Shown here in pieces: positions 24,953 to 60,277 of a stretch of DNA of 64,000 nucleotides (positions within the stretch are counted from its first letter, which is position 1; the number at the start of each line of letters is the position of its first letter). Both the position numbers and the translations under genes were made by a program. The stretch covers positions 62,001-126,000 of the forward strand of contig NZ_JMLS01000021.1 in assembly GCF_000686845.1 (NCBI RefSeq), read 5' to 3'. The notes beneath the pieces are model-generated. The model was not told the DNA's origin. It was given only the letters and a program-made list of their open reading frames with translations, and did not search any database. The stretch comes from Paenibacillus sp. UNC451MF (GTDB taxonomy: Bacteria; Bacillota; Bacilli; Paenibacillales; NBRC-103111).

Positions 24953-24968
24953 GTTCGTTATTAAGAAT
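24953..24968 (-). promoter_or_regulatory. SinR-like operator upstream of the small secreted protein
   Basis: GTTCGTTATTAAGAAT, 13 of 16 matches to the palindrome GTTCTTTATAAAGAAC found repeatedly in the EPS leaders. It is in the leader or promoter region of the minus-strand gene at 24604-24912. Confidence 0.6.
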
Positions 24969-33607: not shown

Positions 33608-33658
33608 TTGACACCAAAGCAGTAAGATGCTATCCTAAAAATGTTCTTAATAAAGAAC
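33608..33658 (+). promoter_or_regulatory. Lasso cluster promoter and first SinR-like operator
   Basis: TTGACA (33608-33613), 17-bp spacer, TATCCT (33631-33636), then the palindrome GTTCTTAATAAAGAAC at 33643-33658, covering the expected transcription start. Confidence 0.7.
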
Positions 33659-33694
33659 GAATCAAGATCGTTATAGATAACAAATCGGAGAATA

Positions 33695-33754
33695 AAAAGG
33701 TTGAATTCAACGGTTTTGTTACTTTTTTTAAAATGATAATTCGTTATTAAGAAC
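33695..33754 (+). promoter_or_regulatory. Leader hairpin, T-run and second SinR-like operator before the lasso cyclase
   Basis: A weak hairpin around GTTGAATTCAAC (33700-33711), seven T at 33723-33729, then after 9 nt the operator ATTCGTTATTAAGAAC (33739-33754). The gap 33491-33791 holds only these elements and the hairpin at 33507. Confidence 0.5.
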
Positions 33755-33791
33755 AACATCCTGCCTATCTTACAGTGTTGCGGAGGGGAAC

Positions 33792-35732
33792 ATGAGCGCC
33801 ATAACTGGAATATATCATTTCACTCAAGAACCGATACCTACGGAGCACGGACTAACGCTGATGTCCGGTCTACAGCAATTCCCTTCGGACTCCATTCATA
33901 CTTGGAGAAATGAACATGTATTCTTAGGCTGCCATGCTCAATACATTACACCCGAATCGGCACATGAACTCTTGCCCTATTATGATACTGAAAGACAGCT
34001 GGTAATAACAGCTGATGCTATCATCGATAATCGAGAATCCTTATTTCAGCTGCTGCAGATTGATTATGGCAGAAGAAGTACAATAACGGATAGTGAATTG
34101 ATTTTGCTGGCATATGATAAATGGGAAGAAAATGCCCCGCAGTATTTAGTAGGCGATTTTGCTTTCATGATTTGGGATTTGCGCAATGGACGATTATTCG
34201 GAGCGAGAGATTTTTCCGGCAGCCGAACTTTATACTACTACCACGATCATCAGCGATTCGCCTTCTGTACTACAATCCAGCCCCTCTTGTCCTTGCCTTA
34301 CACGAAGACAACACTTAACGAGCAATGGCTTGCCGAATACCTGGCTATCATTGGAATGGTCGACGTAGTGGATGCCTCAACCACCGTGTATCGAGATATT
34401 GCTCAATTGCCGCCTTCTCACAGCATTACTATTGCAGGAAGTAAGGTGACGCTGAAGCGATATTGCACATTAACTTCGAGAGAACGGTTGAAGCTGAAAT
34501 CTAACGAAGAATACATTGAAGCTTTTCAGGAAGTTTACCAGGAAGCCGTCACATCGCGGCTGCGTACGAACCGTCAGGTCGGTGCGCAATTAAGCGGGGG
34601 ATTGGATTCGGGCTCCATAGTCAGCTTTGCTGTTAAAGAACTGAGCAAGAGTGGGAAAACACTTCATACATTCAGCTATGTCCCTCCAAGTGATTTCGAA
34701 GATTTTACTCCTGCTCATATATTGACGGACGAAAGACCGTTTATACAATCGATTGTAAAGCATGTCGGAGGAATGAAGGATAGCTACGAGGATTTTGCTG
34801 GAAGAGATCCTTATACGGAAATGGATAGTTTCCTGAGCACGATGGAGATGCCGTATAAATTTTTTGAAAACTCCTTTTGGTTAAAGGGGATGTTCGAAAA
34901 AGCACAAGAAGCGAATGTAGGTGTGCTGTTAAACGGCGGAAGAGGCAATTTGAGCATTTCCTGGGGTTCGGCCATCGACTATTACGCTACTTTGTTAAAA
35001 CGTCTCCAATGGGTACGGTTGGCTCAAGAACTGCACTCTTACAGCAAAAATGTGGGCGGCGCCCGTTTACGCAGGCTGCCCGATGTGGCTCGAACCGCCT
35101 TTCCAATCATGGATCGCTTATTTCCAACATCGGAGCCCTTTGCCTATCCTATGCTAATTAATCCTGACTTTGCTAAAAAAACAGATGTGTTTAATAAGCT
35201 GAAGCAACATGGCATGGACCAATCCGGGTGGTTTTCCTCTCCCAATCTGTTTGAACAAAGAAAAAGCCATTTTGAGGAACTATTTCATTGGAATGCAAGC
35301 AATACGCTAGCCACCAAGCTGTCCTTGAACTATGGGATATGGAAGCGGGACCCCACTAACGATCTCCGAGTGATACGCTTCTGTCTATCTTTGCCGGAGG
35401 AGCAGTACGTACAAAATGGATTGGATCGCGCACTCATCCGCAGGGCGACCAAAACCTTATTACCGGACAATGTAAGGTTGAACCAATCCATACGAGGTGT
35501 TCAGGGAGCCGATTGGGTTCACCGCATGATTCCACATCAATCTGCATTACTCGTGGAACTGGATGAAATGAGTGCAGATCCAACCATATTTGAGCTCTTG
35601 AACGGCCCTGTCATAAGGCGAGCTATAGACAAGGTTCGGGCGGGACTCAGGCCTGAGGATGCTACTAATGCCGAACTTAAGTTTTTAATGAGAGGCATAG
35701 TTGTCTATCGATTTCTTAAAAAATGGACTTGA
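33792..35732 (+). CDS. Lasso peptide cyclase (asparagine synthetase-like, C protein)
   Basis: 646 residues, ATG 33792 with GCGGAGGGG upstream. The N-terminal half resembles the glutamine amidotransferase domain of asparagine synthetase, but the protein starts MSAITGIYHF with no Cys2, so it cannot use glutamine. This is normal for lasso cyclases. The synthetase half has the ATP pyrophosphate loop LSGGLDSGS (about 265). It adenylates the Asp or Glu side chain of the core peptide and closes the ring onto the N terminus. It is the first gene of the cluster here, ahead of the precursor. Closest relative by layout is PadeC of the paeninodin cluster. Confidence 0.88.
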   Translation: MSAITGIYHFTQEPIPTEHGLTLMSGLQQFPSDSIHTWRNEHVFLGCHAQYITPESAHELLPYYDTERQLVITADAIIDNRESLFQLLQIDYGRRSTITDSELILLAYDKWEENAPQYLVGDFAFMIWDLRNGRLFGARDFSGSRTLYYYHDHQRFAFCTTIQPLLSLPYTKTTLNEQWLAEYLAIIGMVDVVDASTTVYRDIAQLPPSHSITIAGSKVTLKRYCTLTSRERLKLKSNEEYIEAFQEVYQEAVTSRLRTNRQVGAQLSGGLDSGSIVSFAVKELSKSGKTLHTFSYVPPSDFEDFTPAHILTDERPFIQSIVKHVGGMKDSYEDFAGRDPYTEMDSFLSTMEMPYKFFENSFWLKGMFEKAQEANVGVLLNGGRGNLSISWGSAIDYYATLLKRLQWVRLAQELHSYSKNVGGARLRRLPDVARTAFPIMDRLFPTSEPFAYPMLINPDFAKKTDVFNKLKQHGMDQSGWFSSPNLFEQRKSHFEELFHWNASNTLATKLSLNYGIWKRDPTNDLRVIRFCLSLPEEQYVQNGLDRALIRRATKTLLPDNVRLNQSIRGVQGADWVHRMIPHQSALLVELDEMSADPTIFELLNGPVIRRAIDKVRAGLRPEDATNAELKFLMRGIVVYRFLKKWT

Positions 35733-35747
35733 AAGGAGGTGAGTAAT

Positions 35748-35903
35748 ATGAAAAAAGCATGGCAAAAGCCTGTACTTGAAGTGCTTGATGTAAATCAAAC
35801 TATGGCATCGACAGTTTACGGTGATTTCACTGACGAAGCTTATGTACCTGGTAAACCGGTTGATCCTAACAACCCAAGCACCTGGAAACGTTTCAACAGC
35901 TAA
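35748..35903 (+). CDS. Lasso peptide precursor (paeninodin-type A peptide)
   Basis: 51 residues, ATG 35748 with the strongest ribosome site of the cluster (AAAGGAGGTGAG). The leader is 19 residues, MKKAWQKPVLEVLDVNQTM, with the WxxPxLEVLDVNQTM pattern of paeninodin-type leaders and Thr at position -2. The core would start at Ala: ASTVYGDFTDE, then AYVPGKPVDPNNP, then STWKRFNS. That is 32 residues, long for a lasso peptide. Acidic residues are at core positions 7, 10 and 11; only Asp7 falls in the known 7-9 ring range. The C-terminal residue is Ser, the residue that paeninodin-type kinases phosphorylate. Confidence 0.85.
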   Translation: MKKAWQKPVLEVLDVNQTMASTVYGDFTDEAYVPGKPVDPNNPSTWKRFNS

Positions 35904-35979
35904 TATGAAACAAAGTGAGCTTATACAACCCTTAGGTTAATGTTTGCTTTAAATGGGTATTGTCGGTATTACATATGTT

Positions 35980-36015
35980 AAAAGCCTTTATACAAACCAA
36001 CGTATAAAGGCTTTT
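35980..36015 (+). terminator. 14-bp hairpin between precursor and kinase genes
   Basis: AAAAGCCTTTATAC, loop AAACCAAC, GTATAAAGGCTTTT: perfect stem. It has only four T inside the arm, so a partial terminator or 3'-stabilising hairpin that raises precursor mRNA over the enzymes is likely. Confidence 0.6.
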
Positions 36016-36048
36016 AATGCAAAAACGGTAGGTAATGGAGTGGAAGTT

Positions 36049-36975
36049 ATGCTACAGACGGAAAATAAGATCGTGTACTCGGCCTTTGGCCTTCGAATTT
36101 CAAGCGAGATTCCTTTGCCGGAATTACCGCATATCAGCGAGCCCTCAGATGAACTGGATATTGAAATTCGAAATGGAGACATAGGCAGGTTTGCCGATCA
36201 ATTATTTGCGACCCCCTTTATGCATGTAGTTGATGAGGGTGCAGTTATGTTCTATGTTCCCGATACCGCGTATTATTCCATACGGGATGGGCGGTTCATA
36301 ACGGTCTCGCCGGTTCAAGGAGCAGACGAGGATTTAATCCGTCTTTACGTTCTTGGCACCTGCATGGGTGCATTGCTAATGCAAAGAGGAATCCTACCGC
36401 TGCATGGCAGCGCAGTAGCCATTCAAGGCAAAGTCTATGCTTTCGTAGGAGACTCAGGAGCAGGAAAGTCTACCTTAGCGTCTGCCTTCCTTAGTCAAGG
36501 TTATTCGCTTGTAAGCGATGATTTGATTGCGGTTACCCTTTCTAAAGAAGATCAGAAGCCTATGGTGACCCCTTCGTATCCCCAGCAAAAGCTATGGCAA
36601 GATAGCTTGAATCATCTCGGTATGTCATCAAGCGATTTGCGATCCATCTATGGAAGAGAGGATAAGTACTGTATCCCCGTTGCTTCGAACTATGTAACGT
36701 CTCCTTTGCCCCTTGCAGGTGTCATTGAACTGGTCAAAACAGAGAATCAACTGCAGGTTGTAAGGATAGAGAAGCTGGATCGTCTACAGACATTATTTTA
36801 TCATACGTTCCGTCCATTCCTAATTCCACGCTTGGGACTGATGGAGTGGCACTTCCAGTCTAGCTCCGTTATTGCGAATCAAATCTCCATGTATCAACTA
36901 AGCAGACCGGAAAGCCAATTCACAGCTCCCCAATTAGTTAACCTAATATTAGATACATTATCGATGGAGGCATAA
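36049..36975 (+). CDS. HPr kinase-like lasso peptide kinase (K protein)
   Basis: 308 residues from ATG 36049 (GGAG 8 nt upstream); the longer frame from 35953 would include the hairpin. Contains LHGSAVAIQGKVYAFVGDSG with the P-loop GDSGAGKST and the HPr-kinase-like LVSDDLIAV. In the paeninodin cluster the equivalent kinase phosphorylates the C-terminal Ser of the precursor. The precursor here ends in Ser, so the same reaction is expected. Separated by 3 nt from the RRE gene. Confidence 0.82.
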   Translation: MLQTENKIVYSAFGLRISSEIPLPELPHISEPSDELDIEIRNGDIGRFADQLFATPFMHVVDEGAVMFYVPDTAYYSIRDGRFITVSPVQGADEDLIRLYVLGTCMGALLMQRGILPLHGSAVAIQGKVYAFVGDSGAGKSTLASAFLSQGYSLVSDDLIAVTLSKEDQKPMVTPSYPQQKLWQDSLNHLGMSSSDLRSIYGREDKYCIPVASNYVTSPLPLAGVIELVKTENQLQVVRIEKLDRLQTLFYHTFRPFLIPRLGLMEWHFQSSSVIANQISMYQLSRPESQFTAPQLVNLILDTLSMEA

Positions 36976-36978
36976 CAT

Positions 36979-37278
36979 ATGATCCAAAATCATAAAATCG
37001 GCATGCAGGATTGCTTTTCCCAAGTGACAGGAAATATTGTTAGCGACATGGGAGGGGAAAAGGTCATGCTGAGCATAGCCAACAGCAAATATTATAATTT
37101 AGGCGAGGTCGGCGGTGAAATCTGGAATTGTCTTACTGAAGCCTCTAGTGTTTCGGCAGAACAAATTGTTGCCGTCCTAATGTCACAGTATGATGTAGAG
37201 CAAGTTGAGTGCGAGCAGCAGGTGGTGTCCTTTTTGGAGCATTTGTTGGAGGAAGGTTTAATTAAGTGGGCATCGTAA
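36979..37278 (+). CDS. Lasso peptide RRE protein (PqqD-like, B1)
   Basis: 99 residues. PqqD fold: start MIQNHKIGMQDCFSQVTGNI, then KYYNLGEVGGEIWNCL and a C-terminal helix (VVSFLEHLLEEGLI). It binds the leader of the precursor and presents it to the protease and cyclase. Overlaps the B2 gene by 13 nt. Confidence 0.88.
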   Translation: MIQNHKIGMQDCFSQVTGNIVSDMGGEKVMLSIANSKYYNLGEVGGEIWNCLTEASSVSAEQIVAVLMSQYDVEQVECEQQVVSFLEHLLEEGLIKWAS

Positions 37279-37730
37279 GTAAGGTAAAGAAGTTCCTTCA
37301 GCTAGATATGGCAACGATGCTGCTAATTGCAGAAGCCATCTTTTATTTAGGATGGGCGCGGATGCTTGTGTCCATTCCTTTTGCCAAGGTTGCGCCTTCT
37401 TTAGGTGCTCATATGCAGGAAACCTCTAATTCCGAAAGACGCGATGATATAGAGTCGCTAATTAAGGTTCACGATATTATTCGGGTGATGAGTCAGCATA
37501 CATTCTGGGAAAGCAAATGTCTGGTTAGAGCCATTGCGGCACTAAAAATGCTGGAGAGACGTCACATAGAAAGCACACTCTACCTAGGAACGGCAAGAGA
37601 CGAGCAGCGCAAGATGATTGCACATGCCTGGCTTCGCAGCGGTCCATTCTATATTACAGGTGCAGAAGAGATGGAACGGTTTCAGGTGGTAGGCACGTTC
37701 GCCAAACGGATAAGCGATAAAGGAAATTGA
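37266..37730 (+). CDS. Lasso leader peptidase (transglutaminase-like, B2)
   Basis: 154 residues, GTG at 37266 within the B1 gene. An N-terminal hydrophobic stretch is followed by the cysteine protease core with catalytic Cys in ESKCLVRAIAALKML (about 83) and His in IAHAWLRSG (about 120). It removes the leader from the precursor, with B1 as its recognition partner. Confidence 0.88.
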   Translation: MGIVSKVKKFLQLDMATMLLIAEAIFYLGWARMLVSIPFAKVAPSLGAHMQETSNSERRDDIESLIKVHDIIRVMSQHTFWESKCLVRAIAALKMLERRHIESTLYLGTARDEQRKMIAHAWLRSGPFYITGAEEMERFQVVGTFAKRISDKGN

Positions 37731-37741
37731 AGGTGAATAGA

Positions 37742-38929
37742 ATGGAAGCTGGTTATCATATGGATGTGTCGTTATTCCCTAATGAGCTGGAACTTATGCT
37801 TTCCTTAATCAAGACGGAGGAAGTGAATATCGGCGATACAAGCTATAACAAGGGGCTTACTGATATCGATTGGGCCTTTTTCCTTGAGCTTGCAACCCAT
37901 CATCGGGTTTTCCCCACATTATACACAAAGCTAAAAAGCATGAATGAACCAGGGATTCCCCCGTATGTCATGCAATCATTGCGAAATGATTATCAACAGA
38001 ATACATTTCAAATGCTGCATTTAAGCGCCGAGATGGACACCATATGCAAGCTGCTCTCCGATTCGGGGATTCGCTCCCTTGTTTTAAAAGGACCGGTGCT
38101 CGCTGCTGATCTTTATGGCGATATATCTCAACGAACATCCGGAGACTTGGATATTCTCATTCCTATCGAAGAGCTGGAGCATGCGGAGCAGCTGCTTGTA
38201 AGACAAGGATATGAGAAGGATGAATACATTCAAACGGTATTAAACGATTGGAAGTGGAGACATCATCATATTACGTTCTTCCATCATCATAAAGGGATCA
38301 AGGTAGAGATTCATTGGAGATTAGGCCCCGGCCCCGGCAAAGAGCCCAGCTTTCAGGCATTGTGGGAAAGAAGAAGGACCAGTGCAATAACCCGTCATCC
38401 TGTCTATTATTTAGGGAGAGAGGATTTATTTTTATTTCTTGTTTCCCACGGTGCACGACATGGATGGTCCCGGCTTCGTTGGTTGTTGGACATTGATCGT
38501 ATGGTTAAGCAAAGCATGGATGTACGGAAGCTTCGACGATTGCTTAAGCAATATGAGCACCTGCATATAGGAGCGCAAGCCTTGATACTCGCATCGCAGC
38601 TTCTTCATACTCCTTTAACAGAGGAGATGAGGACCTTAGCGCAGGGACAGCGTGCAAGAAATCTAGCCCAAGAAGCATTGTTCTATATCCGGCAGATGAT
38701 TAACCTTCATACCGATCCAATACCGTATGAGGTATCAGAGTATCATAAAAAGCATCTGTTTTCATTGATGTCGAATCATCGTAAGCTGCTATTTATTTTG
38801 AATTTCTTTTATCCGTACCCAGAGGATGCTAACACACTGGCGCTGCCTAAATATCTTCACTTCCTTTATTTTCCTCTACGTCCCTTCTTATGGGTCTGGA
38901 GAAAAACGAAAAAGGTTGCCTTATCTTGA
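37742..38929 (+). CDS. Lasso-cluster nucleotidyltransferase
   Basis: 395 residues from ATG 37742 (AAGGTG 6 nt upstream); a TTG at 37727 overlapping the B2 stop is an alternative. Family-5 nucleotidyltransferase with LKGPVLAADLYGD and the metal-binding Asp pair in RTSGDLDILIP (about 140), and HITFFHHHKGIKVEIHWRLG. Such genes are found in many paeninodin-like firmicute lasso clusters; the substrate is not established. It could act on the phosphorylated C-terminal Ser, which is inference. Confidence 0.78.
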   Translation: MEAGYHMDVSLFPNELELMLSLIKTEEVNIGDTSYNKGLTDIDWAFFLELATHHRVFPTLYTKLKSMNEPGIPPYVMQSLRNDYQQNTFQMLHLSAEMDTICKLLSDSGIRSLVLKGPVLAADLYGDISQRTSGDLDILIPIEELEHAEQLLVRQGYEKDEYIQTVLNDWKWRHHHITFFHHHKGIKVEIHWRLGPGPGKEPSFQALWERRRTSAITRHPVYYLGREDLFLFLVSHGARHGWSRLRWLLDIDRMVKQSMDVRKLRRLLKQYEHLHIGAQALILASQLLHTPLTEEMRTLAQGQRARNLAQEALFYIRQMINLHTDPIPYEVSEYHKKHLFSLMSNHRKLLFILNFFYPYPEDANTLALPKYLHFLYFPLRPFLWVWRKTKKVALS

Positions 38930-38940
38930 GGAGGAACGGA

Positions 38941-40755
38941 ATGGAGCATGTCCTGTATTACACCCGAAAATTACATGCCTACGCAGGTAAAGTGTTGTAT
39001 ATGAATCTTCTAGGCATGACACTGATTGGCTTGCTGGATGGAATAGGCATTTTTTTATTAATTCCTTTGTTAAGCGTCAGCGGCCTTCTGAGCATTCAAA
39101 CATCAGCCATTCCTTTCATGGGAATGCTGGATTTCCTGAAGGATGTGTCAAGACCGGTCGGTCTGCTCCTGATCCTCGGATTGTACTTTTTATTAGTGGT
39201 CGGTCAGGCTGCGATCCAGCGTAACCTTAGCCTAAGGGATGTCCAAATTCATGCCGGTTTTGTCAATCATGTGAGAATGGAAACCTATCAGGCGCTATTA
39301 CAAGCGAATTGGAGCTTTTTTATTAAAAAAAGAAAGTCAGATCTAATCAACTCGATGACGAACGAGCTGGCACGAGTGACGAATGGGACCTATGTCTTTT
39401 TGCAGCTTCTGGCATCGCTGGTATTTATGGTGATCCAGATTGGTATCGCTTTGTGGTTATCGGCAAAGATGACGCTGTTTGTTTTGGCGTGTGGCCTGAT
39501 AATGGCCTTATTCTCCCGCACATTCATAAGAAAGTTCCGAATGCTGGGAACCCAAACCTCAGATGTAGCAAGAAGCTATATTGGAGGTATTACCGATCAC
39601 TTCAACGGTATTAAAGATATTAAGAGCAATATGCTGGAACCTTCACGTTACCGTTGGCTCCAGAACTGGAGTGTTACTGTAGCTCAAGAGAGATACGAGC
39701 AAGCCAAGCTAGGCTCGCAATCACAGTTTTATTACAAGGCTGCCTCAACTCTGATCATCGCCGTGTTCATATACTTCTCCGTCACGTTGTTCCAAACTCA
39801 AGGTGAGCAGCTGCTCCTGATCATTATGATATTCTCCAGGCTTTGGCCCAGATTTACTGGAATACAATCCAATTTAGAACAAATCGCCGCTGCGATCCCC
39901 GCCTTTACATCTTTAACCGAGCTGCAAAAGGAATGCATGGAAACAAGGGAAGTCAGTATCGGCACTCTCGACTACAATCAAGTGAAGCCGCTACGTATAC
40001 AAGAAGGCATTGAATGCAAGGACATTTATTTTAGATATGACAAAAATTCACCCATCTATGCTCTTGAACATATTCAGTTAAGCATTGGCTCGAATCAAAT
40101 GACAGCTATCATAGGCCGGTCGGGAGCAGGTAAAAGTACATTGATCGATATTATCATGGGACTGCTGCAGCCGGACCATGGCCAGGTTCTAATCGATGGA
40201 GTTCCGTTGACCAAGGATAACTTGTTACGTTTAAGAAAAGCGATCAGCTATGTCCCTCAGGACCCGTTTTTGTTTAATGGAACCATTAGGGAAAATCTGC
40301 TCCTCATGAATCCCAACTCCACTGAAGAAGAGCTGTGGGAAGCCATTCAATTTGCCGCAGGGGAATTTGTGAGTCGACTGCCCCAAGGCTTGGATACGCT
40401 TATAGGTGACAGAGGAGTCAGGCTGTCAGGCGGAGAACGCCAGCGTTTAGTTTTGGCAAGAGCCATCTTAAGGAAGCCATCGATTCTTGTACTGGATGAA
40501 GCAACAAGCTCTTTGGACACAGAGAACGAGGCTAAAATTCAAGAGGCATTGGAAAGACTAAAGGGAACCATGACGATCATCGTGATAGCGCACCGCTTGT
40601 CGACCATTCGTAACGCGGACCAAGTCATTGTATTAGATGAAGGAGCTATCGTTCAAAGAGGCGGCTTTAATCAATTGGCAAAAGAAAGAGGCAAAGTGTT
40701 CGCTCATTTGTTAGGCAGTCAGTTCCAGGATTCGACAATGATTTCACAAAAGTAA
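38941..40755 (+). CDS. Lasso peptide ABC exporter (D protein)
   Basis: 604 residues from ATG 38941 with GAGGAGGAA upstream; a start at 38890 lies inside the previous gene. N-terminal six-helix exporter domain (to about 320), then the ATPase: Walker A IGRSGAGKST, signature LSGGERQRLVLARA, Walker B ILVLDEATSSLD and the H-loop IVIAHRLST. It exports the mature peptide and usually gives self-immunity. Last gene of the cluster, 154 nt before EPS unit 3. Confidence 0.9.
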   Translation: MEHVLYYTRKLHAYAGKVLYMNLLGMTLIGLLDGIGIFLLIPLLSVSGLLSIQTSAIPFMGMLDFLKDVSRPVGLLLILGLYFLLVVGQAAIQRNLSLRDVQIHAGFVNHVRMETYQALLQANWSFFIKKRKSDLINSMTNELARVTNGTYVFLQLLASLVFMVIQIGIALWLSAKMTLFVLACGLIMALFSRTFIRKFRMLGTQTSDVARSYIGGITDHFNGIKDIKSNMLEPSRYRWLQNWSVTVAQERYEQAKLGSQSQFYYKAASTLIIAVFIYFSVTLFQTQGEQLLLIIMIFSRLWPRFTGIQSNLEQIAAAIPAFTSLTELQKECMETREVSIGTLDYNQVKPLRIQEGIECKDIYFRYDKNSPIYALEHIQLSIGSNQMTAIIGRSGAGKSTLIDIIMGLLQPDHGQVLIDGVPLTKDNLLRLRKAISYVPQDPFLFNGTIRENLLLMNPNSTEEELWEAIQFAAGEFVSRLPQGLDTLIGDRGVRLSGGERQRLVLARAILRKPSILVLDEATSSLDTENEAKIQEALERLKGTMTIIVIAHRLSTIRNADQVIVLDEGAIVQRGGFNQLAKERGKVFAHLLGSQFQDSTMISQK

Positions 40756-40764
40756 AATTTTGTA

Positions 40765-40793
40765 TTGACATGTTCGTTATAAAGAATTACCAT
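40765..40793 (+). promoter_or_regulatory. EPS unit 3 promoter with operator filling the spacer
   Basis: TTGACA (40765-40770), 17-bp spacer, TACCAT (40788-40793). The SinR-like operator GTTCGTTATAAAGAAT occupies 40772-40787, so bound repressor would block RNA polymerase. Confidence 0.75.
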
Positions 40794-40825
40794 GAAGTAA
40801 GAAGCAATAATAGTGCTGTTCGGGG

Positions 40826-40855
40826 TGAAAATGGTGGTGACACCTTCATTTTTTT
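40826..40855 (+). terminator. Leader terminator or attenuator of EPS unit 3
   Basis: TGAA and GGTG pair with CACC and TTCA around loop GTGA with a 3-nt bulge, followed by seven T (40849-40855). It lies between the promoter and the first gene. Confidence 0.55.
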
Positions 40856-40863
40856 GTCCAGTC

Positions 40864-40879
40864 GTTCTTTATAGAGAAT
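40864..40879 (+). promoter_or_regulatory. Second SinR-like operator of EPS unit 3
   Basis: GTTCTTTATAGAGAAT, 14 of 16 matches to the palindrome, 8 nt after the T-run and about 15 nt before the ribosome site of the first gene. Confidence 0.65.
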
Positions 40880-40909
40880 TAATCATCTGAATATAAGGAG
40901 GAACACGAA

Positions 40910-41662: not shown

Positions 41663-41668
41663 GGGGTC

Positions 41669-42865: not shown

Positions 42866-42911
42866 GGCCTTTAGACTATAGAGAGATTTTAGTTGCGGAG
42901 TGATTAGAGAC

Positions 42912-43946: not shown

Positions 43947-43987
43947 CTGTAAGGAGCGCTGCATAATTCAAAGGAGGAGCTTAAGAA

Positions 43988-45148
43988 ATGAAGATTATGA
44001 TGTTTGCCCACGATGGGAGTCTGAACAGGGGATGCGAGGCCATTGTACGCTCATCGACCCATATCATTAAGGAAAAGATTCAAGGCGCCAAGGTTTACTT
44101 GGCATCAGGGAAGCCTGACACGGACAAGGTGATCTCGAAGCTGGACGGCATTTATGACGGTTCTGCCCGCGGAATCAAGAAGTTTTCCTATGATTGGTTT
44201 CTTTCGGCAGTCAAGGTAAAGCTGTTCCAGGATGAGACCTATGCACTCGGTAAAATTCATAACAATATTGTGAAGCATATTCCTAACATGGACGTCTGTT
44301 TATCGATTGGGGGGGACAACTATTGCTACGGGGAGCAGCCGGGCTGGTATGAAATTAACCGCAGGGTGAAGGCCTCGGGCAAGAAACTCGTATTATGGGG
44401 CTGCTCTATAGGGGAAGAAGATATGTCCGATAGAAAGCTGCAAGATCTTCGCTTGTTCGATCTGATCCTCGCCCGTGAAACGTTGACCTACGATATGCTG
44501 GTTGCAAAGGGGCTAACGAACGTCAAGCTGTGTGCGGATTCTGCGTTTACGATGGAGAAGGAAGAGCTGGAACTGCCGGCAGGCTGGCAAGAAGGCAATA
44601 CGGTAGGGCTTAATTTCAGTCCATTAGTATGGAAGAAAAATAAAGAGTCCAGAACAGCCGTGAAGGACCTTATCCAACACATCCTTGATACGACAGATAT
44701 GGCCATCGCCCTAACCCCCCATGTTATGGAAGGCGGTAACAATGATTATGAGGTTCTTCAGCAATACTATGAGGAGTTCAAGCACACCCATCGGGTCATC
44801 CTGCTGCCTAATCATTTAACTGCTATCCAATATAAAGGCTACATATCCAGAATGAGATTTTTTATCGGAGCTAGAACGCATGCGACCATAGCGGCATATT
44901 CCAATTACGTTCCAACGATGGTGCTTGGCTATAGCGTTAAGTCTAAGGGCATATCGAAGGATATTTTTGGTGAAGAAAAATTGGTATTAAGTATTGATCA
45001 AATATCGAACAGCTTCATGTTGAAGGCGAAATTTGATGAGATGATCAAAGAAGAAGGGCTGATTAAGCAAAAGCTTCAGGCATCGATCCCCCGCATTAAA
45101 AAGATGTCCTACAAGGCTGTTGAGTATTTAGATAAGCTAGTTCAATAA
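43988..45148 (+). CDS. Polysaccharide pyruvyl transferase family protein
   Basis: 386 residues, ATG 43988 with AAAGGAGGAG upstream. MFAHDGSLNRGCEAIVRSS, LSIGGDNYCYGEQPGW, LVLWGCSIGE and the conserved IGARTHATIAAYSNYVPT mark the CsaB/WcaK/EpsI/EpsO family. It transfers pyruvate from phosphoenolpyruvate to a sugar, giving a ketal that adds negative charge to the EPS. Confidence 0.85.
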   Translation: MKIMMFAHDGSLNRGCEAIVRSSTHIIKEKIQGAKVYLASGKPDTDKVISKLDGIYDGSARGIKKFSYDWFLSAVKVKLFQDETYALGKIHNNIVKHIPNMDVCLSIGGDNYCYGEQPGWYEINRRVKASGKKLVLWGCSIGEEDMSDRKLQDLRLFDLILARETLTYDMLVAKGLTNVKLCADSAFTMEKEELELPAGWQEGNTVGLNFSPLVWKKNKESRTAVKDLIQHILDTTDMAIALTPHVMEGGNNDYEVLQQYYEEFKHTHRVILLPNHLTAIQYKGYISRMRFFIGARTHATIAAYSNYVPTMVLGYSVKSKGISKDIFGEEKLVLSIDQISNSFMLKAKFDEMIKEEGLIKQKLQASIPRIKKMSYKAVEYLDKLVQ

Positions 45149-45163
45149 AAAGAGGGTTATAGG

Positions 45164-46354
45164 ATGAAGAAGAACTTACTTTTTGTTATGCCAAGCCTGA
45201 CAGCCGGTGGCGGAGAGAAAAGTTTAGTGAATTTGTTATCACAAATTGACTATAAAGCCTATAATGTGGACTTATTTCTATTCAGCCAAACCGGGGTATT
45301 CATTAATTCCCTGCCGAAAGAAGTCAATATATTGGGCTTTCCCAACAAATACAATATTTACACTAAAGGCTTGAAGAAGTCGATGGAGGAGTTTCTAGCC
45401 AAAGGTCAGGTGACCTTAGCTTACTCCAGACTTATGTTCACGGTGATGAACCGAGTCATCAGAAATACAGACTTTTCAGAGCAATTCACATGGAAATATC
45501 AAAGAAAATCATTGGATACATTGGAAAAAGTATATGATGCAGCCATTGGATTTCTTGAGAAATCATCCATTTACTTTGTAGTGGATAAAGTGAAGGCCCG
45601 GAAGAAGATCGGATGGATTCATACGAATTACTCCGATTCAGGGATGAGACATCACTATGACGATCCGTATTTCAAGCAGCTGGATCATATCGTAACGGTA
45701 TCGGAAGAGTGTGCCAAATCACTGAGCGATCATTTTCTTCATTTGAATAATAAAATTAAAGTGATCTACAACATCGTATCGCCGAAGATGATCCATCATT
45801 TATCCAATGAGGACATCGATGAAGGTACCATATTTGATACGGAATATACGAACATCGTTACACTAGCTAGATTAAGCCACGAGAAGGGCATCGATCTGGC
45901 AATCGAATCCTGCAAATTACTGGTGGGCAAGGGCCACAACATAAGATGGTATGTTCTAGGGGACGGACAGGACAGGGAAAGCTTGGAATCTCTTATCGAG
46001 AAGCATCAATTAGGCCCCTATTTCAAGCTTCTTGGAGTTAAGGAAAATCCATATCCGTATATCAAAAAGGCAGATATTTACGTCCAGCCTTCCCGTTACG
46101 AAGGTAAATCGATAGCGATCGACGAAGCCAAAATTCTTCAAAAACCCATTGTCGTTACGAACTTTGAAACTGCCAAGGATCAAATTCAACATGGGATCAA
46201 TGGTGTCATTGTAGATTTATCTCCTGCGGGGATCTCTCAAGGGATTGAGAAGCTGATGGAAGATATCCCATTGAAGAATAGGGTTATTTGTAATCTAGCT
46301 ATTGAGAAGCTGGGCACGGAGGGAGAAATACGGAAGCTCTACGAAATTTTATGA
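45164..46354 (+). CDS. Glycosyltransferase, GT4, paralogue A
   Basis: 396 residues. MPSLTAGGGEKSLVNLLSQI, VTLARLSHEKGIDLAIESC, and VQPSRYEGKSIAIDEAKILQ with the GT4 acid pair. Shares long runs with the next gene, including ENPYPYIKKADIYVQPSRYE, so the two arose by tandem duplication. EPS repeat assembly. Confidence 0.88.
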   Translation: MKKNLLFVMPSLTAGGGEKSLVNLLSQIDYKAYNVDLFLFSQTGVFINSLPKEVNILGFPNKYNIYTKGLKKSMEEFLAKGQVTLAYSRLMFTVMNRVIRNTDFSEQFTWKYQRKSLDTLEKVYDAAIGFLEKSSIYFVVDKVKARKKIGWIHTNYSDSGMRHHYDDPYFKQLDHIVTVSEECAKSLSDHFLHLNNKIKVIYNIVSPKMIHHLSNEDIDEGTIFDTEYTNIVTLARLSHEKGIDLAIESCKLLVGKGHNIRWYVLGDGQDRESLESLIEKHQLGPYFKLLGVKENPYPYIKKADIYVQPSRYEGKSIAIDEAKILQKPIVVTNFETAKDQIQHGINGVIVDLSPAGISQGIEKLMEDIPLKNRVICNLAIEKLGTEGEIRKLYEIL

Positions 46355-46372
46355 TGCGGGTGGTTGTTGCTT

Positions 46373-47554
46373 GTGAAGAAGAGAGTTTTGTTTGTCATGA
46401 ACAATATGCGCTGCGGCGGAGCCGAGAAGGCATTGATTTCGCTGCTGGAAACGATGGATTATTCAGCATACGAAGTTGATTTATTCTTATTCAAGCATGA
46501 CGGGATATTTATGAACCAAATACCCGAGTCAGTCCATTTATTGGAAGAGCCGGCAGAATACCAGTATTATGATATGTCCATCAAAAGAGCGATTCTTGAT
46601 TGTGTGAGAAAAGGAAAATTACATATTGCTTTATTCAGAGGCCTTGCAGGCGTGATTTTTAAAAGTGAAAAAAACAGAGTTCGATGTGAACAGAGGGTTT
46701 GGAAGTATATATCGAAGTCGTTGAAAAACATAGATAAGCCTTATGATATTGCCGTAGGGTACCTTGAAAAAAATCCGATATATTTTTGCATAGACAAAGT
46801 AAAGGCTCATAAGAAGATAGGATTTATTCATAATGACTATGACAAATTGGGCATGGACCCGGAGCTGGATCGCTCTTACTTTGACAAGCTCGACCATTTG
46901 GTAACGGTATCTGAAGAATGCGGCCATGTTCTCAAGAATAGATTTCCTATGTATCAGCAAAAGGTGGACGTCATGTATAACATTGTCTCTCCCGCCGCGA
47001 TATCCAAATTATCGCAGGAGCAGTCCGAATGGGATGATCGTCGCATGAAGCTGGTTTCCGTAGGACGGCTCAATCATCAAAAGGGCTTCGAGCTGGCTGT
47101 AGAGACTTGTAAAGAGCTGGTGCATAACGGATATCCCGTCACATGGTATGTCATTGGTGAGGGAGAGGAGCGGGGAATGCTGGAGAAGCTGATAGCAGCT
47201 AACAACCTCCAAGATCGCTTTGTGCTCATGGGATTAAAAGAAAATCCGTATCCGTACATAAAAGAAGCAGATATTTATGTGCAGCCGTCCCGGTTTGAAG
47301 GAAAATCGATTGCAATAGATGAAGCCAAAATTCTTCACAAGCCCATCGTCGTAACGAACTTCAGCACGGCTAAGGATCAAATTAACGACAGGGAGAACGG
47401 CTTGATTGTAGAGATGAACTCTACATCGCTGTTTCATGCTATAAAATCATTGATCGATGACGAGGAGCTAAGACGTAAATTGACGCTCAACTTATCGAGG
47501 GAGAAGCTGGGGACCGAATCTGAAATTCATAAATTATATGAACTATTCGCGTAA
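46373..47554 (+). CDS. Glycosyltransferase, GT4, paralogue B
   Basis: 393 residues from the GTG at 46373 (MKKRVLFVMNNMRCGGAEKA), with GCGGGTGG 9 nt upstream; a TTG at 46364 is possible. VSVGRLNHQKGFELAVETC and VQPSRFEGKSIAIDEAKILH. Tandem copy of the preceding transferase, probably with a changed acceptor or donor. Confidence 0.85.
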   Translation: MKKRVLFVMNNMRCGGAEKALISLLETMDYSAYEVDLFLFKHDGIFMNQIPESVHLLEEPAEYQYYDMSIKRAILDCVRKGKLHIALFRGLAGVIFKSEKNRVRCEQRVWKYISKSLKNIDKPYDIAVGYLEKNPIYFCIDKVKAHKKIGFIHNDYDKLGMDPELDRSYFDKLDHLVTVSEECGHVLKNRFPMYQQKVDVMYNIVSPAAISKLSQEQSEWDDRRMKLVSVGRLNHQKGFELAVETCKELVHNGYPVTWYVIGEGEERGMLEKLIAANNLQDRFVLMGLKENPYPYIKEADIYVQPSRFEGKSIAIDEAKILHKPIVVTNFSTAKDQINDRENGLIVEMNSTSLFHAIKSLIDDEELRRKLTLNLSREKLGTESEIHKLYELFA

Positions 47555-47572
47555 TAGGAAAGGAACGATTCC

Positions 47573-48760
47573 ATGGTGGTTCAAATCTTAAGTGTGGTGT
47601 TACTGAGTCTCATTGCTGTAATCATCCTTATCGATGTCATCCCTATGTTCAAGGATTGGGTCAGCAGAATCCATATTGGACGCTACCAAGATAAACAAAT
47701 GTGGAATAAATCCATTACGACAAGAGGGATTCGTTGGTTGAATAATACCCCTAAGATCAAAGTAACGGACAATACTCGATTCGTTGCTATCGATATGCTT
47801 AGAGGGAACTATACGAAAAGTGCGATCCAGCACTGGCAAGAAGCTGCGTTAGTCATGGGACTGGCCGAGTATTTGAAACAAAACGATGATTCGGAAGTCA
47901 AGCAGGAAATGACCAAGTTTTTGAATTCAAAGCTGGATAGCTCAGGCCAGTGGATCGAGAAGCCGAAGCAGGTGGATGGAGCCATCCTTGCTTACGCTAT
48001 TATGAAGCTTGATTTCATTGATACAGATCGTTACAAAGCAGCCTTTGATTATATTTGGGACATGATTCAAGATCACAGGGGACAAGACGGAACAGTGGCA
48101 TATCGGAAGTTCATGCAAAACTATCGTTATGTAGATACGATTGGATTCATTTGTCCCTTCTTGGTTTCATACGGTATCCGATATCAGAATCAGGAAAGTG
48201 TTAACTTGGCTGTAGAGCAGATTAAGGCGTACGAGGACAACGGTATGTTGGATCCTCATTTTATTCCAAGTCATGCTTATCAAGTTGAGAATAAAGTTCC
48301 CCTAGGGTTATATGGATGGGGAAGAGGACTTGGTTGGTATGCCATTGGACTTATCGATGCCTGGAACGAGCTGCCGGAAGGGCATCCCCATAAAGCTGCG
48401 CTGGAAGCTAGTGTGAAGAAATTCGCAATCGCCGCCAAATCCTTTCAGCAGCCATCCGGGAATTGGAGCTGGACAGTAACTCGAGGAGAGTGCAGGCCGG
48501 ACTCATCAACAACTGCTACACTTGGCTGGTTTATGCTGCAAGCAGCGAAGATTGAGGAGATTTCTGAGTTATGCGCCAATAGCGCAGACCTAGCTGTTCA
48601 TTACTTAATGCAGGCTACGCGAAGGAACGGCGCAGTCGATTTTTCCCAAGGAGATACTAAGGATATTGGCGTCTATTCCATGTTATTTAACATACTTCCT
48701 TTCACACAAGGATTTTGTATCCGATTAATGAATTCCAAAACCTATTCTAAGGCTGTGTGA
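47573..48760 (+). CDS. Membrane-anchored GH88/GH105-like hydrolase
   Basis: 395 residues. An N-terminal membrane helix (about 4-24, ILSVVLLSLIAVIILIDVI) anchors it, probably with the catalytic domain outside. The rest resembles the alpha/alpha toroid of unsaturated glucuronyl/rhamnogalacturonyl hydrolases such as YteR: WIEKPKQVDGAILAYAIMK with the Asp general acid position, GLYGWGRGLGWYAIGLID and CRPDSSTTATLGWFML. An enzyme of this type inside an EPS assembly unit could trim or process a uronic-acid-containing polymer. Confidence 0.72.
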   Translation: MVVQILSVVLLSLIAVIILIDVIPMFKDWVSRIHIGRYQDKQMWNKSITTRGIRWLNNTPKIKVTDNTRFVAIDMLRGNYTKSAIQHWQEAALVMGLAEYLKQNDDSEVKQEMTKFLNSKLDSSGQWIEKPKQVDGAILAYAIMKLDFIDTDRYKAAFDYIWDMIQDHRGQDGTVAYRKFMQNYRYVDTIGFICPFLVSYGIRYQNQESVNLAVEQIKAYEDNGMLDPHFIPSHAYQVENKVPLGLYGWGRGLGWYAIGLIDAWNELPEGHPHKAALEASVKKFAIAAKSFQQPSGNWSWTVTRGECRPDSSTTATLGWFMLQAAKIEEISELCANSADLAVHYLMQATRRNGAVDFSQGDTKDIGVYSMLFNILPFTQGFCIRLMNSKTYSKAV

Positions 48761-49326
48761 GACTGATGATAAAAAAATGTATTCATTTTATTAGAGCTAG
48801 GGCCAGAAAATATATTCTGGAGGAGCTATGGCTTGAAGATTACATTAAAGTGGGGTTGAAGCTAGGCGACAATTGCTCCATTCAACCGGGGGGCGTTTTT
48901 GATTACTCCCATTGCTGGCTAATCAATATTGGCAACAATGTAACGATAGCGCCTCAAGCTTACTTACTTGCACACGATGCCAGCACTAAACAATTAAATC
49001 AGTATACCAAGGTGGGCAGCATTACAATAGAGGATGATGTTTTTATAGGTGCCAGAGCTTTGATTATGCCTGGAGTCACGGTTGGCAAACGTTCGATCAT
49101 TGCAGCTGGAAGCATCGTCACCAAATCGGTGCCCGAGGGAAGTATAGTTGCAGGCAATCCAGCTAAGGTCCTGTTTACGGTCGAGGAGTACATCGAAAAG
49201 ACGAACAAATTAATGGAAAGCAAAAAGATATATGACCGTCGCTACACGCTAGGCGGGAACATATCGCCTGCAGATAAAGTAAAGATGTACGAGGAGCTAA
49301 TACAAAATATTGGATTTGTAGTCTAA
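48757..49326 (+). CDS. Left-handed beta-helix acyltransferase A
   Basis: 189 residues; GTG 48757 overlaps the previous stop, or ATG 48766. Hexapeptide repeats (VTIAPQAYLLAHDASTK, VFIGARALIMPGVTVGKRS, IVAGNPAKVLF) mark a trimeric O- or N-acyltransferase with His in AHDAS as the likely base. Acetylates an EPS sugar or precursor. Confidence 0.82.
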   Translation: MRLMIKKCIHFIRARARKYILEELWLEDYIKVGLKLGDNCSIQPGGVFDYSHCWLINIGNNVTIAPQAYLLAHDASTKQLNQYTKVGSITIEDDVFIGARALIMPGVTVGKRSIIAAGSIVTKSVPEGSIVAGNPAKVLFTVEEYIEKTNKLMESKKIYDRRYTLGGNISPADKVKMYEELIQNIGFVV

Positions 49327-49353
49327 TAATCGTAGAGTAAGCAGGTGGCATTA

Positions 49354-49899
49354 ATGATAACAAGAATAATAGCATCGTTGAAAGCGAGAATAAAAAATAA
49401 GCTAAACCCCAAAACTGAGCTCCAAATTTTAAAAGAACGAGGCTTGACCTACGGGAAAAATTTTAATTTTTTTAATAGTCATATAGACTACGGACATTGT
49501 TGGCTGGTCGAAATTGGGGACGACGTAACCATAACCAACAGTACTATATTAGCACACGATGCCAGTACAAAATTACACTTTGGAAAAGCGAAAATTGGGA
49601 AAGTCAAGATAGGGGATAGAGTATTTATCGGGTACAACAGTGTGGTTTTGTGTAATGTCACCATAGGAAATGATGTTATCGTTGCGGCCGGTTCTATTGT
49701 AACTAAATCGATACCGGAAAATAGTATTGTTGCTGGGAATCCAGCGAGGATTATTGGTACAACAACCGATTATTTAGAAAAGCATAGACAGCAAATGATG
49801 GTTAAACCGGTTTACGATACGTACTGGCCGCATAAAACTCAGGAACAAATCGCGACTATAAAAAAAGATTTAGACAATGACTTCGGCTATGATGAATAA
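49354..49899 (+). CDS. Left-handed beta-helix acyltransferase B
   Basis: 181 residues from ATG 49354 with AGGTGG upstream; GTG 49345 overlaps that site. Same layout as the preceding gene (YGHCWLVEIGDDVTITNST, LAHDASTKLHFGK, IVAGNPARIIG), so a tandem duplicate, but AT-richer and with a different C terminus. EPS acylation. Confidence 0.82.
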   Translation: MITRIIASLKARIKNKLNPKTELQILKERGLTYGKNFNFFNSHIDYGHCWLVEIGDDVTITNSTILAHDASTKLHFGKAKIGKVKIGDRVFIGYNSVVLCNVTIGNDVIVAAGSIVTKSIPENSIVAGNPARIIGTTTDYLEKHRQQMMVKPVYDTYWPHKTQEQIATIKKDLDNDFGYDE

Positions 49900-49926
49900 A
49901 TTAGAGCATGGAACGCGGAGATGCAT

Positions 49927-51489
49927 ATGAGAATAAACAACTCTATTATCAATATATCTGTCGGCATAGGAAATCAGCTTATCATTACCTTTTTGAGCTT
50001 CTTTTCGAGAACGGTTTTTATAAATACGCTCGGTGTCGAATATTTGGGCTTAAATGGGTTGTTTACGAACTTATTGGCGATGCTTTCCCTCGCCGAGGCG
50101 GGCATAGGCTCCAGTATCATTTACAGTCTCTACAAACCAGTAGCGGATAATGATTATGAAAAAATTAATGTGCTCATGAAATTATACAAAAAGGCATATA
50201 CAATAATAGCCCTCGTCGTATTATTGCTTGGATTATTGCTGATGCCTTTTCTTCCGTATTTCATAAAAGATTCCAGTCTCCAAAATATTCATGTAATCTA
50301 CTTATTATTTTTGGTGAATACCGTCATACCTTACTTTTTTTCTTACAAAACGAACTTATTAAACGTATACCAAAAAAGCTATATCACAACAGCTATCTTT
50401 ACAGGATTGTCCATCGCATCGACCTGCCTTAAGATCGCTATATTGTATTGGACTCAGAACTTCATTTATTACCTGATTGTAGACAGCACCATCGTCATAA
50501 GCAACTCCATAATTTTATTCATCATAGTAAACCGAATGTATCCTTTTTTGAAGGAAAAAGTCACTGCCAAATTAGATGCTATTACGAAGAGCAGCATTAT
50601 CAAAAATGTGAAAGCCATCGTATTACAAAATGTGGGGACCTATTTCATTTTCGGAACAAGCAATATTATGATATCGACATTCGTTAGCATCGCAGCAGTA
50701 GGCTTGTATTCCAACTATAATATGCTGATAGAAATTTGCCGTACGTTTATTAATCAAATTTTCAACAATATATACCATAGTGTCGGTAACCTGGTGGCTA
50801 AAGAGAGCAAAGAAAAAATTTATAGCGTGTATAAAGTGACGATGTTTCTGAATTTCTGGCTGTATTCCTTCTGCGCTATTTTCATGTACGTCATCATCGA
50901 GCCATTTATCACCATGTGGATAGGCAAGCAATTTGTAATGGAAAAGATGGTTTTGATTGTGTTAATGATAACCTTCTATGAAAGAGGCATGAGAAATTCG
51001 ATCAGTACGGTAAAAACAACAGCCGGTATTTTCCATGAAGATCGTTATGCACCATTAATCCAAGCCGTTGTGAATTTAGGTTCTTCGATATGGCTTGTTC
51101 AAGTGATGGGGATATCGGGCGTATTCATCGGCGCTCTCATTAGTGCTCTGCTGGTACCGTTCTGGACGACACCTTATTTTGTGTATAAAAAAGTATTTCA
51201 AAAGCCGCTTATGCACTATTACGGAACTTATGCTTATTATGCAGCTATTGGACTTGGAACTTGTTTGCTCACAAGCCTGCTTTGTCGTTGGCTGACTGCG
51301 GATACCATTCTGGTGCTTGCATTGAAGATCATTATTTGTTTGGTTGTTCCGAATGTTGTTTATATTGTTCTGTTTTACAAAACAGAGGAGTTTAAATATG
51401 TATTTGGAATCGTTGAGCAGCTGGTGAAAAAAGTGCTGAGGAAAGCAAAGCGCATTTCCAGAACGAATGTGCCAACCGGCAACTCGTAA
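49927..51489 (+). CDS. Polysaccharide flippase (Wzx/EpsK-like)
   Basis: 520 residues from ATG 49927 (GCGGAG 6 nt upstream); the ATG at 49921 touches that site. About 12-14 membrane helices; start MRINNSIINISVGIGNQLII, then LSFFSRTVFINTLGVEYLGL, typical of the MATE-like oligosaccharide flippase family. It moves lipid-linked repeat units across the membrane. Last gene of unit 3. Confidence 0.88.
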   Translation: MRINNSIINISVGIGNQLIITFLSFFSRTVFINTLGVEYLGLNGLFTNLLAMLSLAEAGIGSSIIYSLYKPVADNDYEKINVLMKLYKKAYTIIALVVLLLGLLLMPFLPYFIKDSSLQNIHVIYLLFLVNTVIPYFFSYKTNLLNVYQKSYITTAIFTGLSIASTCLKIAILYWTQNFIYYLIVDSTIVISNSIILFIIVNRMYPFLKEKVTAKLDAITKSSIIKNVKAIVLQNVGTYFIFGTSNIMISTFVSIAAVGLYSNYNMLIEICRTFINQIFNNIYHSVGNLVAKESKEKIYSVYKVTMFLNFWLYSFCAIFMYVIIEPFITMWIGKQFVMEKMVLIVLMITFYERGMRNSISTVKTTAGIFHEDRYAPLIQAVVNLGSSIWLVQVMGISGVFIGALISALLVPFWTTPYFVYKKVFQKPLMHYYGTYAYYAAIGLGTCLLTSLLCRWLTADTILVLALKIIICLVVPNVVYIVLFYKTEEFKYVFGIVEQLVKKVLRKAKRISRTNVPTGNS

Positions 51490-51535
51490 ATTTAGTGATG
51501 GTGTTGAAATGTGGGAAAAAACACAATAAACTGTA

Positions 51536-51564
51536 TTGACAAATTCTTTATAAAGAACTAGAAT
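51536..51564 (+). promoter_or_regulatory. EPS unit 4 promoter with operator filling the spacer
   Basis: TTGACA (51536-51541), 17-bp spacer, TAGAAT (51559-51564). The operator ATTCTTTATAAAGAAC occupies 51543-51558, the same geometry as at 40765. Confidence 0.8.
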
Positions 51565-51585
51565 GGAAGTACTAAGTACTACTTT

Positions 51586-51611
51586 AGCGAAACCTATCGC
51601 TCATTTTTTTT
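51586..51611 (+). terminator. Leader terminator or attenuator of EPS unit 4
   Basis: AGCGA, loop AACCTA, TCGCT, then CA and eight T (51604-51611). A short stem, between the promoter and the second operator. Confidence 0.5.
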
Positions 51612-51620
51612 GTTCTCAAC

Positions 51621-51666
51621 GTTCTTTATAAAGAATATTTTGAGTGAAAACTTCTTATAAAAGAAC
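51621..51666 (+). promoter_or_regulatory. Second and third SinR-like operators of EPS unit 4
   Basis: GTTCTTTATAAAGAAT (51621-51636) follows the T-run by 9 nt, and CTTCTTATAAAAGAAC (51651-51666) is a weaker copy 30 bp on. A secondary promoter TTCTCA-N17-TATTTT (51613-51641) would again contain the first of these. Confidence 0.6.
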
Positions 51667-51802
51667 AATGATCCATGATATCACTTCGTTTTACTCCTCT
51701 AGACCTACTACACGAGAACTATAAACTTTCCGACAAAACGAATCATGAAATGCGTACTACGAGCTCACATAACATAGAATTTTATTTTTTTTTTGCATTT
51801 AC

Positions 51803-51818
51803 GTTCTTTATAAAGAAC
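51803..51818 (+). promoter_or_regulatory. Perfect SinR-like operator before the EAR-like RNA
   Basis: GTTCTTTATAAAGAAC, the only perfect 16-bp palindrome of the set, 8 nt after a run of ten T (51785-51794). Confidence 0.7.
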
Positions 51819-53853: not shown

Positions 53854-53871
53854 TAAGGAGTGGATGTAGAG

Positions 53872-54747: not shown

Positions 54748-54756
54748 GTGATCCCC

Positions 54757-57011: not shown

Positions 57012-57016
57012 TGAAT

Positions 57017-57901: not shown

Positions 57902-57924
57902 CGGGTTTGAAGGGATTACAAGCT

Positions 57925-58992: not shown

Positions 58993-59005
58993 GAGGGCGA
59001 AACAG

Positions 59006-60271: not shown

Positions 60272-60277
60272 CAAACC

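Follow-up and report, generated by a model that had tools for sequence, protein, structure and literature searches.

SinR-type palindromic operators precede both exopolysaccharide units and a paeninodin-family lasso peptide cluster in Paenibacillus sp. UNC451MF: a predicted common regulon

In Bacillus subtilis, the matrix operons epsA-O and yqxM/tapA are preceded by operators built from the SinR half-site GTTCTYT, with more than one site per promoter and motifs that span 80-100 bp, an arrangement for which DNA looping has been proposed (PMC3163267; the half-site also in PMC5733473). SinR is a tetramer that binds an inverted repeat 10-fold tighter, with a dissociation constant of about 0.3 uM (PMC3163267), and PMC5733473 cites a crystal structure of SinR bound to an eps operator. 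Here we describe operators of this kind in a 64,000-nucleotide stretch of Paenibacillus sp. UNC451MF (contig NZ_JMLS01000021.1, positions 62,001 to 126,000), referred to throughout as the window, where they stand before exopolysaccharide (EPS) units and before a lasso peptide gene cluster. From the sequence evidence we propose, with a probability of roughly 0.85, that repression by a SinR-family protein, released at the onset of biofilm formation, co-controls the EPS units and the lasso cluster. The GTTCTYT half-sites, their repetition at a promoter over some 80-100 bp and their position before matrix genes are as in B. subtilis. In contrast to the B. subtilis operators, those of the window and its relatives take the form of one tight 16-bp palindrome with an AT centre, and they are also found on the lasso cluster and on stand-alone acyl- and acetyltransferase genes.

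Paeninodin-like and LPP clusters have been reported to sit inside the capsular polysaccharide loci of Bacilli (PMC13381572). The cluster of the window has the same setting, and it shares with paeninodin-family clusters a precursor, a cyclase, an HprK-like kinase, a PqqD-type B1, B2, a nucleotidyltransferase and an exporter. The biological role of paeninodin is stated there to be unknown, and a link to biofilms is offered as a speculation to be tested (PMC13381572, section 12). The words SinR, operator and repressor do not occur in the text of that paper, and an operator common to lasso and EPS genes is what the present locus adds to its account. No publication tying SinR to lasso peptides or to other ribosomally synthesized and post-translationally modified peptides (RiPPs) was found in the open-licence literature, screened partly by title, among the matches listed. 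This agrees with the original prediction, in which SinR control of a RiPP together with matrix polysaccharide was not known to have been described. The parts of the system are of known kinds; the link between SinR and lasso peptides is new as far as the literature was searched.

The original prediction had listed nine palindromes, all in gaps between genes and in leaders, with the published SinR half-site as their arm. The half-site and the placement were borne out, and eight of the nine sites were retained. Matches to GTTCTTTATAAAGAAC with at most three mismatches number eight in the window against 0.48 expected, the largest count among 100 shuffles being two. In a leave-one-out matrix test these eight scored 20.1-25.6, compared with 11.2 for the best other 16-mer of the window; the ninth, at 51651, scored 10.1, which is background, and was not counted. 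The eight sites and the promoters recognised beside them are as follows.

33608..33636, + strand: lasso promoter, TTGACA-17-TATCCT with an extended -10 (promoter scan)
33643..33658, + strand: lasso operator 1, 6 bp past the -10 and over the expected transcription start
33739..33754, + strand: lasso operator 2, 96 bp downstream of operator 1
40765..40793, + strand: EPS unit 3 promoter, TTGACA-T-operator-TACCAT, operator inside the 17-bp spacer
40772..40787, + strand: EPS unit 3 operator 1 (mismatch scan and matrix)
40864..40879, + strand: EPS unit 3 operator 2 (mismatch scan and matrix)
51536..51564, + strand: EPS unit 4 promoter, TTGACA-A-operator-TAGAAT, operator inside the 17-bp spacer
51543..51558, + strand: EPS unit 4 operator 1 (mismatch scan and matrix)
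51621..51636, + strand: EPS unit 4 operator 2 (mismatch scan and matrix)
51803..51818, + strand: EPS unit 4 operator 3, a perfect palindrome
24953..24968, - strand: operator 5' of a small secreted protein gene; the + strand reads GTTCGTTATTAAGAAT, with three mismatches and a leave-one-out score of 20.9

Each site lies between genes, in the leader 5' of an accepted gene. The site at 51803 also falls within a mechanically called open reading frame (ORF) of 82 amino acids (51675-51923) that overlaps an EAR RNA; a Pfam search with this ORF gave no match, and we take it as non-coding. As expected of a SinR operator, the palindrome overlaps or adjoins its target promoter in the lasso unit and in both EPS units. 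The promoter geometry of the original prediction is correct: in EPS units 3 and 4 a single spacer base follows the -35 box, and the operator takes up the remaining 16 of the 17. In the lasso unit the operator starts at 33643, 6 bp after the TATCCT that ends at 33636, and at the 24953 site only a weak promoter was recognised. Paired sites lie 96 bp (lasso), 92 bp (unit 3) and 78 bp (unit 4) apart, start to start. A fixed spacing or helical phasing of such pairs was considered and dropped: the distances are scattered, many of them at 63-105 bp, and show no clear period.

Conservation in related genomes, which the original prediction had named as a source of support, was examined in 79 loci with relatives of the lasso cyclase (55-86% identity; best 80 of 258 kept; 1.68 Mb in total) from genera that include Paenibacillus, Bacillus, Neobacillus, Halobacillus and Alkalihalobacillus. 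In 61 of the 79 loci the cyclase gene has a site with at most two mismatches in the 400 bp on its 5' side, whereas 19 of 20 shuffled palindromes gave 0/79 in the same test and one gave 1/79. The link between EPS units and lasso cluster seen in the window recurs in many genera. The loci hold 222 sites, of which, by simple in-house gene calls, 208 are 5' of a gene (within 450 bp), 11 inside genes and three elsewhere; another 20 controls together gave 37 matches, of which a single one was 5' of a gene. The genes served number 153. By best match to a window gene, 68 of them correspond to the cyclase, 21 to the Wzz-type gene at 28885, 12 to the gene at 40910, eight to that at 52024 and three to the small secreted protein, with 17 more spread over ten other window genes and 24 that have no window match, among them CpsB/CapC, glycosyltransferase, KAS III, metallophosphatase and LPP-type genes. 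A sigma-A-like promoter stands beside the site in 47 of the 61 lasso leaders, with a gap of exactly 6 bp in 21. Among 54 of the 61 leaders retained after reduction, information averages 1.38 bits per column in the operator, 0.18 over the promoter stretch and 0.05-0.07 in the outer flanks; choosing sites by similarity inflates the first of these values, and only the empty flanks are informative. Conservation does not extend into the sequence flanking the lasso operator.

Since at least two EPS homologues lie in the fetched flanks of 67 of the 79 lasso loci, and since the embedding of paeninodin-like clusters in capsular polysaccharide loci is described (PMC13381572), the lasso genes might be bystanders inside an EPS locus whose operators serve the EPS genes. 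We regard this as quite improbable. The site is next to the lasso promoter itself, and its distance from the -10 is often the same. Of the 12 loci in which fewer than two EPS homologues were seen, six still have the lasso site. A motif search also gave seven LPP-type RiPP precursor ORFs, four of which lie within 500 bp of a site, including two that have a site in common.

Site enrichment tracks the presence of a SinR homologue. Across 79 genomes, the strain's own and relatives (SinR matches at E <=1e-15, sites with at most one mismatch), the 37 genomes with SinR hold 114 sites against nine for the control, and the 42 without it hold eight against six, so the palindrome is clearly above control only in SinR genomes. 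Two or more sites occur in 25 of the 37 SinR genomes compared with one of the 42 others (Fisher p 1.5e-10), and the Spearman correlation between site number and SinR presence is 0.80, kinship being ignored in both figures. SinR was also sought in the genomes of 50 of the lasso loci, a sample chosen by site that comprised all 18 loci without a 5' site and 32 of the 61 with one. It was found in 47; in the three without a match (L115, L149 and L163) the whole fetched locus is free of sites. A site somewhere in the locus was present in 45 of the 47 SinR genomes versus none of the three others (p 0.0005, in this sample chosen by site). A palindrome-binding regulator unrelated to SinR could in principle read the sites, given that weaker helix-turn-helix matches are also encoded in the strain's genome and that binding of the sites by SinR is a prediction. 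Both the identity of the sequence with the SinR half-site and the correlation just described argue against such a regulator, which we consider very improbable indeed.

Which SinR-family protein would act at these sites is a separate matter. SlrR acts as a partner of SinR. This pairing is touched on in PMC3163267 and PMC5733473. The original prediction named as regulator a SinR homologue encoded near the end of the window:

63322..63663, + strand: putative divergent SinR/SlrR-family repressor of an EPS-linked clade; best PDB match SinR 1b0n/3zkc, E 2.9e-24, residues 1-110

The protein does carry a SinR-type helix-turn-helix, close to that of SinR. It is, on the other side, one of four SinR-like proteins of the genome (E <=1e-15), belongs to a separate clade and has no SinI domain match: PF08671 gave none at E 0.1, whereas L017 and L018 have one, and phmmer nevertheless aligns its C-terminal part to SinR. 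Its best NCBIfam model is NF046032 SlrR, at 71.4 bits below the cut-off of 250. In a tree of 60 rows it falls in a separate clade of 15 (support 100/98) on a long stem, the tree having few columns and long branches flagged by the program. A single-sequence AlphaFold model (predicted local distance difference test score 50) was too poor and was not used. The proteins at C11:71951 and C29:33226 carry the Pfam SinI domain, and a SinI ORF 5' of C11:71951 gives the classical, canonical sinI-sinR order, outside the window. Separately, an ORF with a SinI domain (L016:2324-2545, - strand, approximately window 64145-64366; PF08671, 36.9 bits) lies about 0.5 kb beyond the 63322 gene, outside the window and on the opposite strand.

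The linkage of the 63322 gene could mean that its product specifically reads the palindromes, as a dedicated local repressor of EPS and lasso genes apart from the canonical SinR regulon. Its helix-turn-helix closely matches SinR; a gene of this type lies within 50 kb of the lasso cyclase (about 4-48 kb) in 15 of 16 genomes, counted as the clade plus G043, which was added by a similar match; and the 16 genomes hold 87 of the 114 sites, against eight for the control. The sixteenth genome, G062, was outside the cyclase search and has several sites on the same contig as its 63322-type gene. Even so, five genomes (L095, L098, L110, L114 and L122) have a single SinR match, 58-68% identical to the canonical L018 protein, and yet carry the lasso operator, which speaks against the 63322 protein as the sole reader. 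The 21 SinR-positive genomes without the clade, membership outside the tree being judged from SinR matches, hold 27 sites against one in the control, and the 63322 protein lacks a Pfam SinI domain match. A dedicated local reader is therefore unlikely. Because of the five single-SinR genomes and the 27 sites against one, a canonical SinR is the more likely reader: we favour as predicted reader the protein at C11:71951, with its adjacent SinI, or that at C29:33226, and a role for the 63322 protein as an SlrR-like partner. As in known SlrR/SinR pairs, the 63322 protein best matches the SlrR model and its relatives are paired with a second SinR: in 12 fetched loci a canonical-like SinR gene adjoins the 63322 homologue, and in seven of the 12 that gene has a site (at most three mismatches) 76-99 bp 5' of its start. 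It differs from such pairs in its own long-stem branch and in having no adjacent partner in this genome; no canonical-like partner beside the 63322 homologue was found in the strain's own genome, G009 or G011. A SinR paralogue of G017 (L187:576) has a perfect site 181 bp and a one-mismatch site 44 bp 5' of its start and is likely autoregulated.

From the observed sites, their geometry, their conservation and their tie to SinR we infer a mechanism in which binding, looping, repression and timing would run as follows. At each promoter, a SinR-family tetramer would bind the inverted repeat, which lies within the spacer in both EPS units and over the start point in the lasso unit, and the bound operator would block RNA polymerase there. 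The second site, 78-96 bp downstream, would probably also be bound, likely with a DNA loop that adds affinity. EPS units 3 and 4, the small secreted protein and the lasso cluster would thus be silent during growth, until, as a biofilm begins to form, SinR is titrated by SinI or by a paralogue and all are released together. EPS unit 4 would additionally be read through by its EAR element.

Several observations weigh against common SinR control. In the strain's own genome (7.49 Mb, 73 contigs), matches with at most two mismatches number only 12, compared with eight for the control, a reversed palindrome. No site lies within 400 bp 5' of the cyclase in 18 of the 79 lasso loci, and 15 of those 18 genomes have SinR, which is a modest contrast to the 32 of 32 tested with a site. 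Allowing three mismatches gives a site at this distance in three of the 18 (L117, L138 and L161), and in 13 a site is present elsewhere in the locus. A matrix scan of the window found no operator for its upstream Wzz unit (28885), yet the 21 matching genes in related loci have one. Eight of the 37 SinR genomes have no site with at most one mismatch, one of the 42 genomes without SinR has two, and related genomes are not independent of one another. Finally, the co-regulation published for P. alginolyticus is not explained by these sites alone.

In that species, reverse-transcription quantitative PCR showed a rise of pbaB1, an EPS-related gene and, modestly, lppB in stationary phase, and the products went undetected in the native host, for which unknown modifications were offered as a reason (PMC13381572, section 7). 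The P. alginolyticus locus has sites before the lasso unit (two and three mismatches), EPS unit 3 (one and one), an AMP-binding-enzyme gene (two) and EPS unit 4 (zero, one and zero), with an EAR 22 bases after the last of these. The parallel rise of pbaB1 and an EPS-related gene at a locus with such sites is in keeping with common control. No site with at most three mismatches precedes its Wzz-lpp genes. The EPS gene tested there, which we identify tentatively by the order of locus tags and by a sub-threshold TIGR03029 EpsG-kinase match of the window homologue, probably belongs to a site-free run of genes as well. Because lppB and probably the EPS gene are in this site-free run, the sites alone do not account for the published expression, which we rejected as proof of the regulon.

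The genome-wide count by itself proves nothing, there being no excess at up to three mismatches either (70 versus 73 in the control); the signal lies in position and crowding. Six of the 12 matches with at most two mismatches fall in the 64-kb window. Of the other six, three are inside genes (L007, L009 and L010) and three are 5' of transferase genes: a perfect palindrome before a hexapeptide-transferase gene (L001), where the promoter scan recognised no promoter, and sites before two Acyl_transf_3 genes, one with a weak promoter at the same 6-bp gap (L008) and one whose promoter -10 overlaps the site (L006). As evidence the count is weak, unlike the placement.

Beyond this strain, we find it reasonably probable that the SinR biofilm regulon permanently includes, across the Bacilli, lasso peptides of the paeninodin type and, in part, the linear LPP peptides. 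They would be matrix-phase products whose promoters have an operator on or close to the start point, with an EPS-linked SinR/SlrR-like pair tuning them in Paenibacillus. If true, a RiPP family joins the matrix genes in the SinR regulon, under a sharply defined geometry of operator and promoter, and the biofilm becomes the setting in which paeninodins, whose role is stated as unknown, would act. The SinR-type operator turns the speculated link between paeninodins and biofilms (PMC13381572) into a simple test. SinR-type repression may be one reason why products were undetected in the native host, and more SinI or no SinR may offer a way to switch on such clusters in a laboratory strain. The conservation raises the interest of the locus beyond what the window alone could show.

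The lasso cluster is assigned to the paeninodin family because its precursor (NF033524), B1 (NF033536) and B2 (NF033537) score above their cut-offs; a threaded, phosphorylated product is predicted. Its genes are these.

33792..35732, + strand: lasso macrolactam cyclase (C), with Asn_synthase and GATase_7 above the Pfam cut-off and lass_lactam_cya as best NCBIfam model, below cut-off
35748..35903, + strand: lasso precursor of 51 amino acids, NF033524 paeninodin family lasso peptide, 47.2 bits against a cut-off of 27
35953..36975, + strand: HprK-like kinase, PF07475 at 31.9 bits, just under the cut-off of 33.3
36979..37278, + strand: lasso B1, PqqD-type RiPP recognition element, NF033536 above cut-off
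37266..37730, + strand: lasso B2 leader peptidase, NF033537 above cut-off
37727..38929, + strand: nucleotidyltransferase, NTP_transf_5 (Pfam)
38890..40755, + strand: ATP-binding cassette exporter (Pfam)

The other genes and elements served by the operators are given below.

40910..51489, + strand: EPS unit 3, with capsule-type and other glycosyltransferases, a pyruvyl transferase, a GH88-like protein and two hexapeptide transferases
51832..51943, + strand: epsC RNA (EAR, RF01735), 102.3 bits against a gathering threshold of 42, 13 bases after operator 3
52024..62741, + strand: EPS unit 4, with Polysacc_synt_2 (EpsC-like), a nucleotidyltransferase, glycosyltransferases, an EpsG family protein, an epimerase, a sugar transferase and PglD-type and DegT-type proteins
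24604..24912, - strand: small Asn-rich protein of 102 amino acids with a signal-peptide-like start (by eye) and its own operator at 24953

Pfam matches identify the genes of both EPS units as polysaccharide genes. EPS unit 3 is syntenic in P. alginolyticus; its last ORF (49921) had no Pfam match and by eye encodes a membrane protein. In B. subtilis the EAR sits inside the eps operon. The EAR of the window, above the RF01735 gathering threshold, resembles known EAR elements in lying 5' of an EpsC-like gene and differs from that of B. subtilis in belonging to the operon leader, where it immediately follows a SinR-type operator. A terminator-like hairpin with a T run is present at 51586-51601, between operators 1 and 2 of EPS unit 4 and ahead of the EAR, and similar hairpins were seen by eye in the other two window leaders. 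As a conserved part of the paired operators such hairpins were rejected: a terminator scan gave 12 against 13.9 in shuffles, and inspection by eye of 45 of the 79 lasso leaders found no consistent terminator.

Four LPP-type precursors with SinR-type sites 5' of them were located at L160:10357-10587, L160:9653-10087, L135:16985-17191 and L142:20370-20627, the two in L160 being divergent with a common single site. In the lasso/EPS locus of P. eucommiae, two SinR-type sites follow about 0.3-0.4 kb downstream of a cyclic di-GMP-I riboswitch (L091:7902-7991, + strand, 59.3 bits), hinting at joint control by cyclic di-GMP and SinR. The 102-amino-acid protein at 24604-24912 had no Pfam match at cut-off and no NCBIfam match; homologues of its gene with sites of one or two mismatches occur in L090, L100 and L101, and its product is a candidate new matrix protein.

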